From the NCBI RefSeq assembly GCF_016859125.1, contig NZ_CP069338.1:434001-498000 (forward strand): a stretch of 64,000 bases of DNA. Reading direction: 5' to 3'. Shown here in pieces: positions 34,760 to 41,235 of the stretch. Both the position numbers and the translations under genes were made by a program. Positions within the stretch are counted from its first letter, which is position 1, and every line of letters begins with the position of its first letter. The DNA is from Archangium violaceum (GTDB taxonomy: Bacteria > Myxococcota > Myxococcia > Myxococcales > Myxococcaceae). The notes beneath the pieces are model-generated. The model made no database searches and had not been told where the DNA came from. It saw nothing but the letters and a program-made list of their open reading frames with translations.

Positions 34760-34884
34760 GGCTCCTCCGAGTATTGGCTCCCCGATTCCAGGGTCAAGAC
34801 ACCTCCGCCTCGTGTTGGAGGCTGGACGTCTCATGGGGGGGGCCCCCGGTGTCCACGGAGGTCTCCCGGTCTACACTTCCAACC

Positions 34885-35733
34885 ATGAGCGCACTGACCA
34901 CAGGAGACGTCCTCGGAGGGAAGTGGCGCATCGTCCGTCCGGCCCTCGGCGACGAGCCCGGCTCGGAGTTCCGGGTGGAGCCCTCTGGAGGCGGTGGAGC
35001 CCGGCGGCTCACACTGTGGCGAACATTGCGCGCACCCGCCCCGGCCGAGCTGGAGTGCTTCGAGCGGCTCGTGCACACGGGTGAGCGGACGGAGAACCCC
35101 TCGTTCCAGCCCGTGGAGGACGTGGGGTACGACGTGGCCCGGGAGGTGCTGTGGTGGGTGCGCCCCTGGTGGAATGGCGAATCGCTGCCCTCGATGTTGG
35201 GGGGACTCCATGAGGTAGGGCTCGAGCTTGCCTACCTCTACTCACTCGCCGAACAGCTGGCTCAGGCGCTCACCGCCGCCCAGGCCTCCGGCGTCGTCCA
35301 TGGTCGGCTGAGGCCCTCGCGGTTGCTCGTCGCCCCCGGGCCCCAGGGCGTGCGGCTGTCCATCCTCGACCTGGGGCTGGAGCTCTTCCGGCGCAACCAC
35401 GCCCACGCCTGGATGAAGCCTCCCCAGGTGGGGAGGGCCTACGTGGCGCCCGAGCTGGACGACGCGGGTCCCGTGTCCGCCTCCGCCGATGTCTTCTCCT
35501 TCGGGCTCATCGTGCGGGACATGCTGGCCTCGCGGCGGGACGGGGTGTGGCGGGGGCGATGGGAGCACTGGGTGGAGCGGGCCACGGCCGCGGCTCCACG
35601 CGCACGCTTCGGCAATCTCACCGAGGCCATGCGGGCCCTGAAGCCGGTGCTGAAGTCCCTGCCCGACCCCATCCCCCCACCGCCGGAGAACCATCAACGC
35701 GAGCACCCCGTCCCCGAGGAGCGCGATCGCTGA
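34885..35733 (+). CDS. Protein kinase-fold pseudokinase
   Basis: 282 residues from ATG 34885. The C-lobe of a protein kinase is clear: VVHGRLRPSRLLVAPG (residues 137-151) aligns with HRDLKPxNIL, ILDLGLELF with DFG, AYVAPELDD with the APE motif, and ASADVFSFGLIVRDML with helix F. The catalytic Asp is Arg (HGR for HRD), the N-lobe has no Gly-rich loop (GGKWRIVRPALGDEP) and no VAIK lysine. Transfer of phosphate is therefore unlikely. A Pro-rich tail follows. It may bind and regulate an active kinase. Confidence 0.85.
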   Translation: MSALTTGDVLGGKWRIVRPALGDEPGSEFRVEPSGGGGARRLTLWRTLRAPAPAELECFERLVHTGERTENPSFQPVEDVGYDVAREVLWWVRPWWNGESLPSMLGGLHEVGLELAYLYSLAEQLAQALTAAQASGVVHGRLRPSRLLVAPGPQGVRLSILDLGLELFRRNHAHAWMKPPQVGRAYVAPELDDAGPVSASADVFSFGLIVRDMLASRRDGVWRGRWEHWVERATAAAPRARFGNLTEAMRALKPVLKSLPDPIPPPPENHQREHPVPEERDR

Positions 35734-35751
35734 CGCCCGGACGGGCCCCGC

Positions 35752-37074
35752 TCAGTACATCTTGCGCAGGCGCGCGGCGAAGAAGCCGTCCCAGGCCTCG
35801 GGGCCCGGCAGCGTGCGCAGGTACGCCTGGGTGAGCGGGAGCTTCACCGCCTCGTGCAACACCGGCGGCTCCGCCGTCCACTCGGGGTGGCTGCGCAGGA
35901 ACATCTCCACCTGATCCTGCCCCTCCTGCGGCTCCGACGTGCACACCGCGTACACCAGCAGCCCTCCGGGTGGCACCGCCTCCTGACAATTCTCCAGGAT
36001 GCGCCGCTGCAGCACCGCCAGCCGTCCGATGTCCTCCTGCGTGCGCCGGTAGCGCAGCTCCGGGTGGCGCCGCAGCGTCCCCAGCCCCGAGCACGGCGCG
36101 TCCACCAGGAACGCGTGGAACTCGCCCCACTCCTCCGGGTAGGGCTGCGACGCATCGTGCGCCCTGGCGCTCAGGCGCTCGGAGAGGCCCAGCCGCTTCG
36201 CCTCGGATTCGATCTTCCTCAGCTTGTTGGCGTGGAGGTCCGTGGCCACCACCTCCTCGTGCTTCTCGGCCAGGTGACACGCCTTGCCGCCCGGCGCCGC
36301 GCACGCATCCAGCACCCGCGCCGTCTCCGGGATGTCGCCGTAGACGCCCACCAGTTGCGCCGCCTCGTCCTGTACCTGCCACAGCCCCTCGGCGTAGCCG
36401 TACACGTCCTCCAGCCGCCCCACCGGGGGCAGCACGATGCCCACCGGCGACACCGCCGTGGGCCGCACTTCCAGCCCCGTCTCGCGCAGCTGCTCCACCA
36501 GCGCGTCCCGCGTCACCTTCGCGCTGTTGGCGCGGATGACCACCGGCGGCGTCTGGTTGTTGGCGACGAGCATCGCCTCGGCGCGCTCGCGGCCGAACTG
36601 GCGCAACCAACGCTCCACCAACCACCGGGGGTGGCTCTCGCGCACCGACAGGAACCCGGCGAGGTCATCCTCCGGAGGCAGCGGCTGCGAGGGCAGCGAG
36701 GACAGCTTGCGCAGGATGGCGTTGGCGAAGCCCGCCGCGCGCGACAGCCCCACGTCCTTGAGGGCCTGTACCGTCTCGGCCACGGCGGCGCGTGCCGGCA
36801 CCCGCGTGTAGAAGAGCTGGTAGGCCCCCACGCGCAGCGCGGCCAGGACCTTGTCCTCCAGCGCGTCCAGCTTGCGGTCGGCGAAGCGGGTGATGGCGTA
36901 GTCCAGCGCGAGCTGGCGGCGGGTGGTCCCATAGGCCAGCTCGGTGATCAGCCCCGTGTCCCGAGGGTCGGCCGGAGGCGACTCCGAGAGCACCGTATCG
37001 AGAACGACATTGAGGTACGCATCCGTGGCCCGGACGCGGCTCAGAACCTGGATGGCGATGGCGCGTGCGTTCAT
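35752..37074 (-). CDS. rsmB: 16S rRNA m5C967 methyltransferase
   Basis: 440 residues, normal family length. An N-terminal NusB-like RNA-binding domain (about 1-140, MNARAIAIQVLSRV..., ITELAYGTTRRQLALD) is followed by the SAM domain: DACAAPGGKACHLAE (motif I), a Cys pair in VDAPCSGLGTLRRHPE (motif IV) and VYAVCTSEP (motif VI). It methylates C967 of 16S rRNA. It is the last gene of an operon with fmt, with a degenerate dehydroquinase-like gene between them, which is a departure from the usual fmt-rsmB pair. Confidence 0.95.
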   Translation of the reverse strand: MNARAIAIQVLSRVRATDAYLNVVLDTVLSESPPADPRDTGLITELAYGTTRRQLALDYAITRFADRKLDALEDKVLAALRVGAYQLFYTRVPARAAVAETVQALKDVGLSRAAGFANAILRKLSSLPSQPLPPEDDLAGFLSVRESHPRWLVERWLRQFGRERAEAMLVANNQTPPVVIRANSAKVTRDALVEQLRETGLEVRPTAVSPVGIVLPPVGRLEDVYGYAEGLWQVQDEAAQLVGVYGDIPETARVLDACAAPGGKACHLAEKHEEVVATDLHANKLRKIESEAKRLGLSERLSARAHDASQPYPEEWGEFHAFLVDAPCSGLGTLRRHPELRYRRTQEDIGRLAVLQRRILENCQEAVPPGGLLVYAVCTSEPQEGQDQVEMFLRSHPEWTAEPPVLHEAVKLPLTQAYLRTLPGPEAWDGFFAARLRKMY

Positions 37075-37084
37075 CCGTCCCCTC

Positions 37085-37951
37085 TCACCCTTCCAACCGG
37101 GTCATCATGTCCACGAGCTCCGATTCCGACAGCTTGCTGGCGGGCATGGTGGACAGGGTGAGGCGCTGCAGGGACTCCTCCAGCATGTCCCGGTAGCCAC
37201 TCTCCGCCGGAGCGCCACGCTGCACCTCCGTCCACTTCGAACGGGCCCAGGTGGCCAGCTCCGCGGGCGTCAGCCGGCCCGCCAGCCGGTCGGCGATCTT
37301 CTGCCGCACCAGGGCCCGGGTGAGGAAGTCCGCCGCGGGCGTGCCCTTCACCTTGCGGCCCAGCGTCTTCACCGGGGCATCGGCGGAGCGCGCCAGGGCC
37401 CTCGACGGAGACACGGCCAGGGATTTCTCCCGGGGAATGTCCTTCTTCCGGCGGCCGAGCGTCTTCACCCGCCCCTCCGACTCCTCCCCTTCCTCGCCCT
37501 CCTCCACCGGCTCCTCGTCCTCCTCCGTCAGCTCCCCGGCGAGCTCCCCGCTCGCGAAGCGCTCGAGGGCCTCGAGGTACGAGTCGAAGCCCTGGCCCTC
37601 GATGGTGGCGGCGCAGGCCTCGGCCACCACGGACTCACGCCCGCCGAGCTCCTCCAGGTACACCTCGATGGCGGGCACGCCCACGGCCTCCAGCGCCTCC
37701 ATCAGCGGGTACGAGCCGAACAGCCCCGCGGGGCTCACCACCACGCCGTCCAACCGGGAGCGCTCGGCCTGGAGCGTGTCGATGAGAACGCCCTCGTGGT
37801 TGGACTGCACCACCTTCAGCTCCAGCCCCAGCTCCGCGGCCCGGGCATTCAGGGCGGCATCGAGGTCCGCGAGCCGTCCCCCCTGCCTGCCCTCCCGCTC
37901 GCCCAGCAGGTTCAGGTTCGGCCCATGCAGTACCAACAACCTCTTGCCCAT
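37085..37951 (-). CDS. Degenerate type II dehydroquinase-like protein with C-terminal extension
   Basis: 288 residues; true AroQ enzymes have about 145-150. Residues 1-135 follow the AroQ fold: LLVLHGPNLNLLGEREG, VVQSNHEGVLIDTLQ, VVVSPAGLFGSYPLMEALE, AIEVYLEELGGRES. Compared with AroQ, the catalytic Tyr loop is lost (RQGGRL), the substrate Asn is Ser73, the general-acid His is Gly79 and the EVH His is Tyr98; Arg19 and Arg105 are kept. Dehydratase activity is therefore very unlikely. Residues 140-288 are acidic then basic, with two VKTLGRK-type repeats and a helical C-terminus. It sits between fmt and rsmB, 10-15 bases from each, so a role in translation or rRNA modification is a guess. Confidence 0.85.
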   Translation of the reverse strand: MGKRLLVLHGPNLNLLGEREGRQGGRLADLDAALNARAAELGLELKVVQSNHEGVLIDTLQAERSRLDGVVVSPAGLFGSYPLMEALEAVGVPAIEVYLEELGGRESVVAEACAATIEGQGFDSYLEALERFASGELAGELTEEDEEPVEEGEEGEESEGRVKTLGRRKKDIPREKSLAVSPSRALARSADAPVKTLGRKVKGTPAADFLTRALVRQKIADRLAGRLTPAELATWARSKWTEVQRGAPAESGYRDMLEESLQRLTLSTMPASKLSESELVDMMTRLEG

Positions 37952-37966
37952 GTCGCGTGTCCTCTC

Positions 37967-38902
37967 CTACGTGTCGAATGGCCGGCTGCCCGGCGCCAGC
38001 TTGCGGCCCGCGAGGAACTCGCCCGCCGCCATCACCCGCTTGCCCTCGGGCTGCACCTCCAGCAGCACCAGGGAGCCCTCCCCGCACGCCACCTCCAACC
38101 CCTGCGGGCCCGCGGATACCACCGTCCCCGGCTCGCCACGCCCCTGCCCCACCTTCGCCCGGTGCACCTTGAACAGCTTGCCGTCCAGCGTGGTGAAGGC
38201 TCCCGGCCACGGGGTGAAGGCGCGCAGCCGCCGCTCCAGCTCCACCGCCGGCCGCTTGAAGTCGAGCTTCCCATCCTCCTTCTGGATGATGGGGGCGAGC
38301 ACCATGCCCTCCGAGGGCTGTGGCACCGGCTTCAGCTCGCCGCGCAGGTACGCGGGGAGGCACTCGCGCAGCAGCTCCCCGCCCAGCTTGGAGAGCTTGT
38401 CGTGCAGCGTGGCACTCGTCTCGTCCGGGGCGATGGGCAGGCGCTTCTCCGCGAGGACCGGGCCGGTGTCCAGGCCCTCGTCCATCACCATCAACGCCAC
38501 GCCCGTCTCCGTGTCCCCATGGGCGATGGCCCACTGGATGGGGGCTGCGCCGCGGAAGCGCGGGAGCAGCGAGGCGTGCACGTTGAGGCACCCCTTCACC
38601 GGCGTCTCCAGCAGATCCTTGGGGAGGATCTTCCCGTAGGCCGTCACCACGGCGACATCCGGGGCGAACCTACGCAGCTCCTCGGAGAAGGGAGGGGTGC
38701 GCAGCTTCTGCGGCTGCAACACGGGCACCCCGCGCTCGAGCGCGTAGGCCTTCACGGGGGAGACGGCCAGCGCCTGGCCACGGCCCTTGGGCTTGTCCGG
38801 CTGGGTGACGACGGCCACCACGTCTCCGATGTCGAAGAGGGCGGCCAGGGAGGGCACGGCGAACTCGGGGGTGCCCATGAAGACGATGCGGGGGCGGGTC
38901 AT
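37967..38902 (-). CDS. fmt: Methionyl-tRNA formyltransferase
   Basis: 311 residues from ATG 38902. The formyltransferase core shows RIVFMGTPEFAVPSLAAL, LNVHASLLPRFRGAAPIQWA (with the catalytic Asn-His pair and the SLLPxxRGAAP loop) and MDEGLDTGPVL. The C-terminal tRNA-binding domain spans about 205-311. It formylates initiator Met-tRNA with 10-formyl-THF. It is second in an operon: HAMP-like protein, fmt, AroQ-like protein, rsmB. Confidence 0.96.
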   Translation of the reverse strand: MTRPRIVFMGTPEFAVPSLAALFDIGDVVAVVTQPDKPKGRGQALAVSPVKAYALERGVPVLQPQKLRTPPFSEELRRFAPDVAVVTAYGKILPKDLLETPVKGCLNVHASLLPRFRGAAPIQWAIAHGDTETGVALMVMDEGLDTGPVLAEKRLPIAPDETSATLHDKLSKLGGELLRECLPAYLRGELKPVPQPSEGMVLAPIIQKEDGKLDFKRPAVELERRLRAFTPWPGAFTTLDGKLFKVHRAKVGQGRGEPGTVVSAGPQGLEVACGEGSLVLLEVQPEGKRVMAAGEFLAGRKLAPGSRPFDT

Positions 38903-38934
38903 ATTGGGGGAGCCTTCTGCTGTACCCGGGCGCG

Positions 38935-39534
38935 TCAGGCAACGGACTTCAGCGCACCCGAGGTGGGACCTTCGATGGCCTGACGTTTGCGAGCGCGGAT
39001 GGAGCCGAGGATGCTGAGCGCGGCCTGGGCATCCTGGGTGGTGGCCAGGGGCCGCAGGGCCTCGATGACCTCGGCGAGCAACCGGGCCTCCTCCGCCTCG
39101 CGCTCGCGGATGCGATCCACCGCCTCGCTGAAGCGGTTGAAGAAGCCGAGCAACTCGTCCTTCTTGCGCAGCGGGCGCATGCGCGGGTAGCGGCCGGCGG
39201 CGAGCGTCGCGATGTAGAGGCTCATCACATGGATGGGGCCGGCCACGCGGTGGGTGAGCACGAGCCCGAGCAGGGCCATCAACCCCGCCATGAGCAGGGC
39301 GCCCAGCCCGATGAGCCACAGCATCGTCTCGCCACCGGCGGCGAGGGCCTCGGGGGACGCACCGCTCTCCACCGCTTCCCGGTGGGCCCGGTACGCCAGC
39401 ACTCCGACGAGCATCACCCCGCCTCCGCCGAGCGCGGCGAGCCGGAGCATGTACCGGAGCTGGAACCCGGTATCGATCAGATATTTCCGGCGCATGACAT
39501 GAGGACGCGTGGAAGGTTGAGTATCGACGGACAT
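38935..39534 (-). CDS. Membrane protein with HAMP-like domain
   Basis: 199 residues from ATG 39534. Two transmembrane helices (about 27-47 and 70-96: MLWLIGLGALLMAGLMALLG-like) are followed by a HAMP-like segment, HRVAGPIHVMSLYIATLAAG then RYPRMRPLRKKDELLGFFNR, and a charged coiled coil (RIREREAEEARLLAEVIEAL). There is no kinase or receiver domain, so it would be a signalling stub or an adaptor. It lies 32 bases upstream of fmt and probably shares its transcript. Confidence 0.75.
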   Translation of the reverse strand: MSVDTQPSTRPHVMRRKYLIDTGFQLRYMLRLAALGGGGVMLVGVLAYRAHREAVESGASPEALAAGGETMLWLIGLGALLMAGLMALLGLVLTHRVAGPIHVMSLYIATLAAGRYPRMRPLRKKDELLGFFNRFSEAVDRIREREAEEARLLAEVIEALRPLATTQDAQAALSILGSIRARKRQAIEGPTSGALKSVA

Positions 39535-39639
39535 GGCGTTGGGCAGCGTACTCCAATCTCCTGGGTCGGTTTGATCCTTCCGACAGGACGGGTTTAGGAC
39601 GGAACGCACGTACAACCCGTAGTCCCTTGGGGGGCCCAC

Positions 39640-41235
39640 ATGTCTCGCCTTCTTGCCGCGTCGAGCCTGGCGCTCATGCTCGTTTTTTCCGGGTGCAAGG
39701 TGGACCCGACCTCTCCGGAGTATTGGGAGAAGACATTGGGCAGGGCCCGGAGGGCCCAGGACCAGGTACGGGTCATCGAAGCCCTCCGCAGCTCCGGCAC
39801 CCTCAACGCGAGCTTCCTCCCCTTCCTGCACGAGCAGCTCGCGTCGGACAAGAAGCCCGAGGTGAAGGCGGCGGTGGCGCGGGCGCTCGGGGATGTGAAG
39901 AACGTGGCCTCGGTGGAGCCGCTGGGGAAGGCGGTGGACCTGGGAGCGACGGACTCGGCCGGCAACCTGATGAACAAGGCATTGGCGTCGGCATTGGGAG
40001 AGATTGGCGACCCCAGGACCGTGCCGGAGCTGATGAAGCTGCTGAAGGCGCGGGACAACTACACACGCATCGAGGCCGTGGACGCACTGGGACGCCTGCG
40101 CGCGAAGGAAGCGGTGGAGCCCCTCATTCAAATCACCCTGGATGAGACCGCGGAGCCCTTCCTGAACAAGAAGGCCATCGAGGCCCTGGGGCGTATCGGG
40201 GACGCGCGGGCAGTGCCGGTGCTGATGCGGATGCTGACGAAGGAGCGCCGGGGCGTCTCCTTCTACGTGGAGAGCTCGTTCTCCCTCTTCCAGATGGGCC
40301 AGCCGGCGGCGGATGCGCTGCTCGCGGTGCTGGAGGGCAAGGACGAGGAGCTGTCGCGCTGGGTGAAGCAGAACGGCATCAACCCGGCGAGCTACTCCTT
40401 CAAGGCGGCGGAGATCCTCGGGGACCTGCGGGAGCGCCGGGCGGAGGGAGCCCTCGTGCAGCAGCTCGCCTTCAAACATGAGGATCCCCGCATCCAGGCG
40501 GGCGTGAGGGCGCGAGCGGCGGACGCACTGGCGAGGATGCGCTCGACGGCGGCGGTGAAGCCCCTGGCGGCGCTGGTGTCCGAGCCGGACGCGGGGTTGC
40601 GGCGGCAGTACACGCACGCGCTGGCGCGGCTGGGCGGACGCGACGCGCTGCCGGCCCTGGAGAAGGCGGCGGGCCAGGGAGACTGGTACGCGCGCGAGGC
40701 GGCCATCGACGCCCTGACGATGCTGGGAGACGCGCGGGAGCAGCCGGCGCTGGAGAAGCTGGCGGCGGCGGAGCCGGCGAAGGCGGCGGCCGAGTGCGCG
40801 GAGCTGGGCGGCGAGGGGTGCGAGGATCCGGCGGCGCTGGGGAAGAAGCGGGCGGAGATGATTTCCCGGTACGGCCAGCGTCTGGAGGCGGCGAAGACGT
40901 GCGGTGCGGACCCGGCCTGCTGGGCGAAGAGGCTGGAGGACGCGGACAAGGGCGTGGTGGCGCGCGCGGCGCTGGAGGTGGGGCGCGGTGGAGCCGCGGC
41001 ACACCTGGGGGCCCTGCTGTCACGGATGACGGAGAAGGACCCGGACACGCGGATGGCGCTCATCCTCGGAGCGGAGTGGCTGGTGGAGGACAAGAAGGAG
41101 GCCGCGGCCCAGGCGAGGGCCTCGCTGCCCACACTGGAGAAGCAGCTCTCCGAGGAGAAGAGCCGCACGGAGTATGTGAGGGCGAACGAGGACCTCCGGC
41201 GGCTCGTGGCCAGGCTTCAGAGACAGAAGACCTGA
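39640..41235 (+). CDS. HEAT-repeat lipoprotein
   Basis: 531 residues. Lipoprotein signal MSRLLAASSLALMLVFSGC with lipobox FSGC. The mature protein is a run of HEAT/PBS-lyase-type helix pairs, for example VKAAVARALGDVKNVASVEP, LASALGEIGDPRTVPELMK and KKAIEALGRIGDARAVPVLM. Such solenoids bind partner proteins; being lipid-anchored, it probably acts at the periplasmic face of a membrane. It is divergent from the HAMP-like gene and ends 13 bases before the convergent DJ-1 gene. Confidence 0.85.
   Translation: MSRLLAASSLALMLVFSGCKVDPTSPEYWEKTLGRARRAQDQVRVIEALRSSGTLNASFLPFLHEQLASDKKPEVKAAVARALGDVKNVASVEPLGKAVDLGATDSAGNLMNKALASALGEIGDPRTVPELMKLLKARDNYTRIEAVDALGRLRAKEAVEPLIQITLDETAEPFLNKKAIEALGRIGDARAVPVLMRMLTKERRGVSFYVESSFSLFQMGQPAADALLAVLEGKDEELSRWVKQNGINPASYSFKAAEILGDLRERRAEGALVQQLAFKHEDPRIQAGVRARAADALARMRSTAAVKPLAALVSEPDAGLRRQYTHALARLGGRDALPALEKAAGQGDWYAREAAIDALTMLGDAREQPALEKLAAAEPAKAAAECAELGGEGCEDPAALGKKRAEMISRYGQRLEAAKTCGADPACWAKRLEDADKGVVARAALEVGRGGAAAHLGALLSRMTEKDPDTRMALILGAEWLVEDKKEAAAQARASLPTLEKQLSEEKSRTEYVRANEDLRRLVARLQRQKT

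Follow-up and report, generated by a model that had tools for sequence, protein, structure and literature searches.

The gene that lies between fmt and rsmB in the window (the whole stretch of 64,000 nucleotides of the Archangium violaceum genome that was analysed), here called X, encodes a pseudoenzyme: its catalytic residues have been lost and its fold is under purifying selection. Judged from its sequence and from those of its relatives, the protein is almost certainly not a dehydroquinase, and it very probably has a selected protein function. Our best explanation as a whole, to which we give about an even chance, is that X is a pseudoenzyme kept across a bacterial family, that it is a relic of aroQ, and that it works as a multivalent display platform. 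The features of the locus are collected in Table 1.

Table 1 Features of gene X and its neighbours in the window, with the aroDE gene of the host genome
Feature	Position	Strand	Basis
Gene X, 288-aa pseudo-dehydroquinase	37085..37951	(-)	ORF with ATG start, PF01220
X, AroQ-fold domain, residues 1-134, catalytic residues gone	37550..37951	(-)	alignment, model, structure comparison
X, former catalytic lid loop, approximately residues 18-28; R19 present, Tyr24 absent	37868..37900	(-)	alignment
X, charged linker, residues ~135-207, pLDDT mostly <60	37331..37549	(-)	model; evolves fast
X, KTLGR motif 1, residues 163-167	37451..37465	(-)	
X, KTLGR motif 2, residues 195-199	37355..37369	(-)	
X, C-terminal four-helix domain, residues 208-288; no Pfam/NCBIfam family	37088..37330	(-)	
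fmt, methionyl-tRNA formyltransferase, upstream neighbour of X	37967..38902	(-)	TIGR00460, 310 bits
rsmB, 16S rRNA m5C967 methyltransferase, downstream neighbour of X	35752..37074	(-)	NF011494, 393 bits
Small conserved gene upstream of fmt	38935..39534	(-)	no Pfam match; weakly like sensor-kinase models
aroDE, divergent type I dehydroquinase fused to AroE	L242:7725-8996, host genome ~C1:9.294-9.295 Mb		

Fold and active site of X

The first-pass annotation, made from the letters of the window, had placed X between fmt and rsmB with gaps of 10-15 bp and had described a C-terminal extension with repeats. Both descriptions were borne out: the gaps are 15 bp between fmt and X and 10 bp between X and rsmB, and the extension takes up approximately residues 135-288, which meant about 154 extra residues with two copies of KTLGR. 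A scan of positions 35000-40000 for promoters and terminators found none. The small gene upstream of fmt (38935-39534) is in the same gene run in most loci that reach that far. Convergent with rsmB there is a protein-kinase-like gene (34870-35733, + strand; PF00069, 35 bits), which reads VHGRLRP and DLG at the positions of HRD and DFG, the letters that we take to be the standard kinase motifs, and its sequence is probably that of a pseudokinase. As a general partner of X this gene was rejected, because a scan of 65 loci, most of them stretches of 8 kb, found it at only 6, which all belong to genera g1 and g6.

Residues 5-132 of X matched the Pfam family DHquinase_II (PF01220) with 104.2 bits (E 5.9e-30; Pfam cut-off 23.3). 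The protein stayed below the NCBIfam equivalog cut-off of type II dehydroquinase (TIGR01088; 86.2 vs 169.85 bits) and below the cut-off of each of the four PRK05395 subfamily models. The structure model, which was built from 48 sequences, had a pLDDT of 82, mostly above 90 in the AroQ part outside the lid, and its residues 1-138 aligned with solved type II dehydroquinases at Z scores of about 20-22 (8idr 21.0, 8idu 21.2). In the model, X has the flavodoxin-like AroQ fold, and residues 208-288 form four helices.

The residues were numbered, and their roles assigned, by alignment of X to the C. glutamicum dehydroquinase 8idr and with the help of PMC10772564, whose accessible part gives Tyr24 as the general base of that enzyme. 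X shares with the type II dehydroquinases (PF01220; 8idr/8idu) the fold, the HGPNL and QSN.E motifs, and the residues N12, R19, E99 and R108, all of which are retained in the window. It differs from them in Y24 (replaced by G), N75 (by S), H81 (by F), H101 (by Y) and R112, which falls in a deletion, and in its ~154 extra C-terminal residues; D88 is also changed, to E. The first-pass annotation had read the Tyr loop, the Asn and both His as replaced and two Arg as kept, which was correct by alignment to 8idr, and the third Arg, the substrate-binding R112, is missing as well.

Alignment A1 comprised the window X and 47 of the 58 fetched loci with an X-like frame, that is, 48 X. It omits six rows whose close relatives were already included (L125, L132, L134, L168, L170 and L172), L147 (cut by a contig end), L160 (584 aa) and the short forms L178-L180, and in all eleven of these frames Tyr was found by eye to be absent. 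Among the 48 X, Y24 was retained in 0/48, H81 in 4/48, H101 in 10/48 and N75 in 34/48, and the three Arg in 31/48 (R19), 30/48 (R108) and 14/48 (R112); the lid was shortened or absent in many. Position 88 was D or E in 46 of the 48, which is compatible with the AroQ dodecamer. Since Tyr was lost in 48/48 X and substrate-binding residues in most, Tyr was probably lost first. The least derived X, those of G103 and G107, retained N12, R19, N75, H81, E99, H101, R108 and R112 but had no Tyr and had E instead of D88, and the X of G156 and G157 was without R19 too. One or more of N75, H81, H101 and R112 was replaced or deleted in the host genus and in most of the family. The positions common to X and the enzymes (HGPNL, QSN.E, E99, Y125 and others) are for the most part in neither the lid nor the carboxylate pocket.

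In the 17 intact AroQ of the phylum, Y24, N75, H81, H101, R108 and R112 were present in 17/17, and R19 was R in 15 and K in 2. The objection that these residues vary in active enzymes, which the first-pass annotation had raised against its own reading, was checked on 77 bacterial AroQ, a panel that was chosen by likeness to X and is hence non-random, and it found no support there: Y24, N75, H101, R19, R108 and R112 were invariant (77/77), and H81 was H in 68 and Q in 9.

Distribution, selection and the dehydroquinase of the cell

We surveyed 195 genomes of the phylum, including 96 of the host's family (f1), and traced X by its C-terminal domain. This analysis showed the domain in 91 of the 195 genomes, once in each, namely in 88 of the 96 family genomes and in G155 (f7), G156 and G157 (both f8). 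The named members are Pyxidicoccus fallax, Corallococcus praedator and Myxococcus eversor, from which we take f1 to be, presumably, the Myxococcaceae. Gene order was counted at 48 X loci, one of them that of the window. The start of rsmB was at most 150 bp downstream of X in 45 of the 47 loci where rsmB could be located, the two genes overlapping by 4 bp in 23 of them, and the end of fmt was at most 150 bp upstream in 39 of the 43 loci with fmt found. At four loci fmt was 0.3-3.5 kb from X and at five it was not found in the fetched stretch, and X was still present.

Eight of the 96 family genomes were without X (G066, G071, G102, G139, G143, G144, G145 and G152), and six of these eight were also without a clear rsmB ortholog (best match at most 38% identity, or none at E 1e-20). 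In G139 (L344:1-2300; Fmt 89% identical), fmt was followed directly by rsmB on one contig without N, and X was absent. This close relative has lost X cleanly, so X is not indispensable. In G071, there were ~870 bp between fmt and rsmB without a recognisable X.

Fourteen pairs of relatives were analysed for selection. In the AroQ part dN/dS was 0.03-0.29 and in the C-terminal domain 0-0.35, and the linker, which is fast evolving and very variable, gave 0.17-1.8. In the 13 of those pairs that were compared for the neighbouring genes, the values were 0.07-0.15 for Fmt and 0.08-0.25 for RsmB, which means that the dead fold is constrained nearly as strongly as these housekeeping proteins. The low dN/dS of the AroQ part together with the presence of X in 88/96 family genomes indicated that the X frame is not a product of chance.

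The Pfam type I dehydroquinase family (PF01487) matched 12 of the 195 phylum genomes at E 0.001, none of them in f1, and a separate intact AroQ was present in just 8 of the 88 f1 genomes with X (G000, G063, G090, G091, G092, G104, G140 and G141). The idea that X would be the only dehydroquinase in most of the family was nevertheless dropped, since the frame beside aroB is a divergent AroD-AroE fusion. The aro operon of the host (L242) reads aroK-aroDE-aroC-aroB-aroA and is separate from the X locus. In the N-part of AroDE, the residues E33, R35, D37, S95, H97, K122, R167 and Q191 were present in 27/27 aligned sequences, and these invariants aligned with the invariants of 8 true AroD (hhalign probability 94.4, E 8.5e-8); the letters (E.R.D, S.H, K, R, APGQ) are presumably the catalytic positions of type I AroD. 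PF01487 itself gave 16.6 bits in one relative (cut-off 22.2) and no match for the host protein. On the strength of these residues, the dehydroquinase of the cell is probably this AroDE fusion with its divergent type I AroD, in active form.

Of the 96 f1 genomes, 87 matched the profile of the AroDE N-part, and 82 of these belong to the 88 that have X. Further matches were in G057, G059 and G011. Six X genomes were without AroDE: G104, G140 and G141 have an intact AroQ, and G077, G107 and G133 show no other dehydroquinase. Another candidate dehydroquinase was thus present in 85 of the 88 X genomes (82 AroDE, 3 intact AroQ without AroDE), which means that X need not do the dehydroquinase step there. 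The assemblies of G077 and G133 consist of about 960 and 1010 contigs, and in G133 aroB stands at a contig start. In G107 (L150; genome 90% complete), the searches turned up neither aroB nor a shikimate dehydrogenase nor another dehydroquinase.

A check for a second aroQ or aroD in the host genome, as proposed by the first-pass annotation, found a nearly intact aroQ as well as the divergent type I AroD. This free-standing AroQ (L250:6130-6585, C1 ~2.872 Mb) has all listed catalytic residues except for a Lys in place of Arg19; the same position is also Lys in L155/L100 and is Arg in L089, L092, L095 and L098. Its gene adjoins Coq4-like and AMP-binding genes, and the enzyme perhaps serves a special pathway.

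Probable origin between fmt and rsmB

A tree with 24 of the 48 X placed all 24 on one side of a branch (support 99/98, and 100% of the 200 bootstrap trees), and by these sequences the X family is of single origin. In G161 and G162 (f9, a related family of the same order), the gene order is fmt-aroA-aroE-aroC-aroK-aroB-aroQ-TerC-rsmB, so an intact aroQ ends an aro operon that lies between fmt and rsmB. A weak hint came from G027 (f2) and G055 (f4), in which aroQ and rsmB are ~7 kb apart on one strand, and in G031, G042 and G163 fmt directly adjoins rsmB with nothing between. The tree put X outside the enzyme clade and not beside the f9 AroQ, a position of which fast evolution may be the cause; descent from an f9-type aro operon is therefore read from gene order.

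In four genomes (G104, G140, G141 and G155), X is accompanied by an intact aroQ in an aro operon elsewhere, so a duplication is needed in the origin of X. The coexistence of dead and live copies also means that the loss of Tyr preceded the change to type I or was independent of it, and the idea that X arose as a side effect of a swap from type II to type I was rejected, since these four genomes hold a Tyr-less X together with an intact aro-operon AroQ. In the course of events that we propose, an aro operon would have entered between fmt and rsmB and later left, and a copy of its last gene, aroQ, would have stayed as X. From the gene order in related genomes, we consider it likely that X is such a relic of aroQ in place.

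The tail and the possible role of X

The strict motif KT[LI]GR was found in 102 copies in the linkers of the 48 X, whereas 500 shuffles gave 0.028 copies on average and never more than 1, and since the 48 proteins are related by descent these copies are no independent count. It was present in 47 of the 48, the remaining one, L149, having KSIGR; two X had four copies, 17 had three, 15 had two, 13 had one and one had none. If S was allowed, there were 125 copies, in which position 2 was T (102) or S (23) and nothing else, and position 3 was almost always L or I. In the four genomes searched for the motif, only X had at least two clustered matches, and the 12 other KTLGR matches there stood against 16 for the reversed pattern (G/C-ending codons searched). 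The strings KTLGR, KTLGRK, KTIGR and KTLGRKV were in no paper of the open-access literature searched.

Scans of the C-terminal domain members against Pfam and NCBIfam gave nothing usable on its identity; EAD2 (PF19956) matched 3 of 40 members, weakly (best E 0.0052). Against the PDB, the best E was 1 by profile search and 1.6 by Foldseek, and the best Z by VIA-align was 5.5, which is within background. The domain had no significant likeness to any ribosome-binding family, and a search of 18 genomes for other proteins that carry it gave only weak partial matches, with E 0.0066 or worse. The short X-like proteins of G158-G160 contain such motifs, gave no match to the C-terminal domain, and are not beside rsmB in the stretches fetched. 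The one of G158 (L264:9029-9610) consists of an AroQ part and KTLGR motifs without the C-terminal domain; convergent to it is the gene of an ordinary Ser/Thr kinase (L264:9746-11239, 126 bits), and rsmB is on another contig of this genome.

The AroQ enzyme of C. glutamicum is a dodecamer of four trimers, according to the accessible part of PMC10772564. In our proposal X would still assemble as AroQ does, into trimers and perhaps a dodecamer, and the dodecamer would present twelve tails, each of them bearing a four-helix domain and between one and a few motifs. Such a platform would offer the motif and the helical domain in many copies to its partner, and the run with fmt and rsmB would couple the level of X to the translation machinery. 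We favour the multivalent platform because it uses all conserved features of X, from the AroQ fold to the motif on its flexible linker and the four-helix domain; that X is an oligomeric display scaffold, a reading drawn from the motif array and from how the enzyme family folds, is still tentative, and we put it just short of an even chance. A more specific proposal is that X is a phospho-switchable hub, in which the T or S of the motif is targeted by a kinase and its phosphorylation switches the recruitment of the partner, linking signalling to the fmt-rsmB operon. T or S at position 2 in 125/125 copies would suit a phosphorylation site, and the host dodecamer would carry 24 motif copies, with more in relatives. 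Myxobacteria have many eukaryote-like kinases, and the kinase in question would be one of these. As it stands, we think this hub quite unlikely.

The display scaffold has to be weighed against readings that give the same gene another task or none. X could be a translation-linked factor, whose basic KTLGR(K) motifs bind Fmt, RsmB, 16S rRNA or the ribosome and which tunes initiation or ribosome maturation. The first-pass annotation had proposed a pseudoenzyme in a translation-linked role, of which the pseudoenzyme is well supported by sequence, whereas the translation link was drawn from operon position. fmt and rsmB are indeed within 150 bp at most loci (with the 4-bp rsmB overlap in 23), and 6/8 f1 genomes without X also have no clear rsmB ortholog, but the gene order is also explained if X is an aro-operon relic at that place. 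Moreover, G139 keeps fmt-rsmB without X, X persists at the loci with fmt 0.3-3.5 kb away (four) or not found (five), and the C-terminal domain is without significant likeness to a ribosome-binding family, so we regard a translation factor as unlikely. Decay would account for the overlap or very short gaps to rsmB, the clean loss in G139 and the very variable linker, if X were a functionless protein kept only through translational coupling to rsmB. A dN/dS of at most 0.35 in the AroQ part and C-terminal domain in 14/14 pairs, and the conservation of the motif letters and of the domain across 48 proteins, make this very unlikely.

The remaining readings keep X closer to the aromatic pathway. A sensor that binds dehydroquinate or a similar acid without turnover and signals the state of the pathway via its tail would fit the X of G103 and G107, which keep all listed active-site residues but Tyr and D88; with one or more of N75, H81, H101 and R112 altered in most of the family, the host genus included, such a role could not be general, and we hold it to be decidedly unlikely. 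It is highly improbable that X is still an enzyme in which other residues do the dehydroquinase or a related lyase reaction, although the host protein keeps N12, R19, E99 and R108 and 3/88 X genomes (G077, G107 and G133) show no other dehydroquinase: the general base Tyr24 is gone in 48/48, the lid is shortened or absent in many, 85/88 X genomes have another candidate, and two of the three exceptions, G077 and G133, are fragmented assemblies. That the second AroQ of the host genome has nearly all catalytic residues could suggest a regulatory subunit which mixes into dodecamers of active AroQ in a prozyme-like manner, but with a separate intact AroQ in only 8/88 X genomes of the family, this is barely credible.

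Pseudoenzymes are already known, and the nearest precedent for X in the literature searched is the dead Aro1 domain of Candida albicans, with the types reversed. The accessible part of PMC9074039 describes a catalytically dead type I dehydroquinase domain in Aro1, which is compensated by the type II Dqd1 and is still structural, since it mediates the homodimer. As far as that part goes, Aro1 is like X in that the dehydroquinase with active-site substitutions has a counterpart of the other type, encoded elsewhere in the genome, and the two cases are mirrored, with type II dead and type I AroDE as the candidate enzyme in X genomes. Unlike Aro1 as described there, X stands as a gene of its own away from the pathway operon, has a motif array and an added domain, and is kept over most of a bacterial family. 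The scaffold pseudoenzymes in the accessible part of the review PMC10211241 resemble X in that catalytic residues are gone, the fold is retained and accessory regions are added, and no example of a type II dehydroquinase was found in that part. The accessible part of PMC11528492 deals with a dead TrpC-TrpF and with a DHQ dehydratase-shikimate dehydrogenase fusion of an alga, neither of which is X, and the corresponding parts of PMC1173090, PMC7311316 and PMC4314829 contain nothing on a Myxococcus dehydroquinase. Among the matches listed in the open-access literature, none was on the X gene or on a dead type II dehydroquinase, and among those listed for the amino-acid requirements of Myxococcus, none named Myxococcus.

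Pfam labels X a type II dehydroquinase though it is almost surely not one, and the likely enzyme, AroDE, falls under the Pfam cut-off, so automatic pathway maps could put the dehydroquinase step on the wrong gene. The X family is a readable series from enzyme to pseudoenzyme at one genomic place, with the loss of Tyr in all and then of His, Asn and the third Arg in most, and some related genomes still have a candidate for the arrangement from which this series started. The strict K-[T/S]-[L/I]-G-R array and the four-helix domain point to a binding partner in these well-studied social bacteria, and the phospho-switch hub, if true, would be a new use of a metabolic-enzyme shell together with a new peptide motif.
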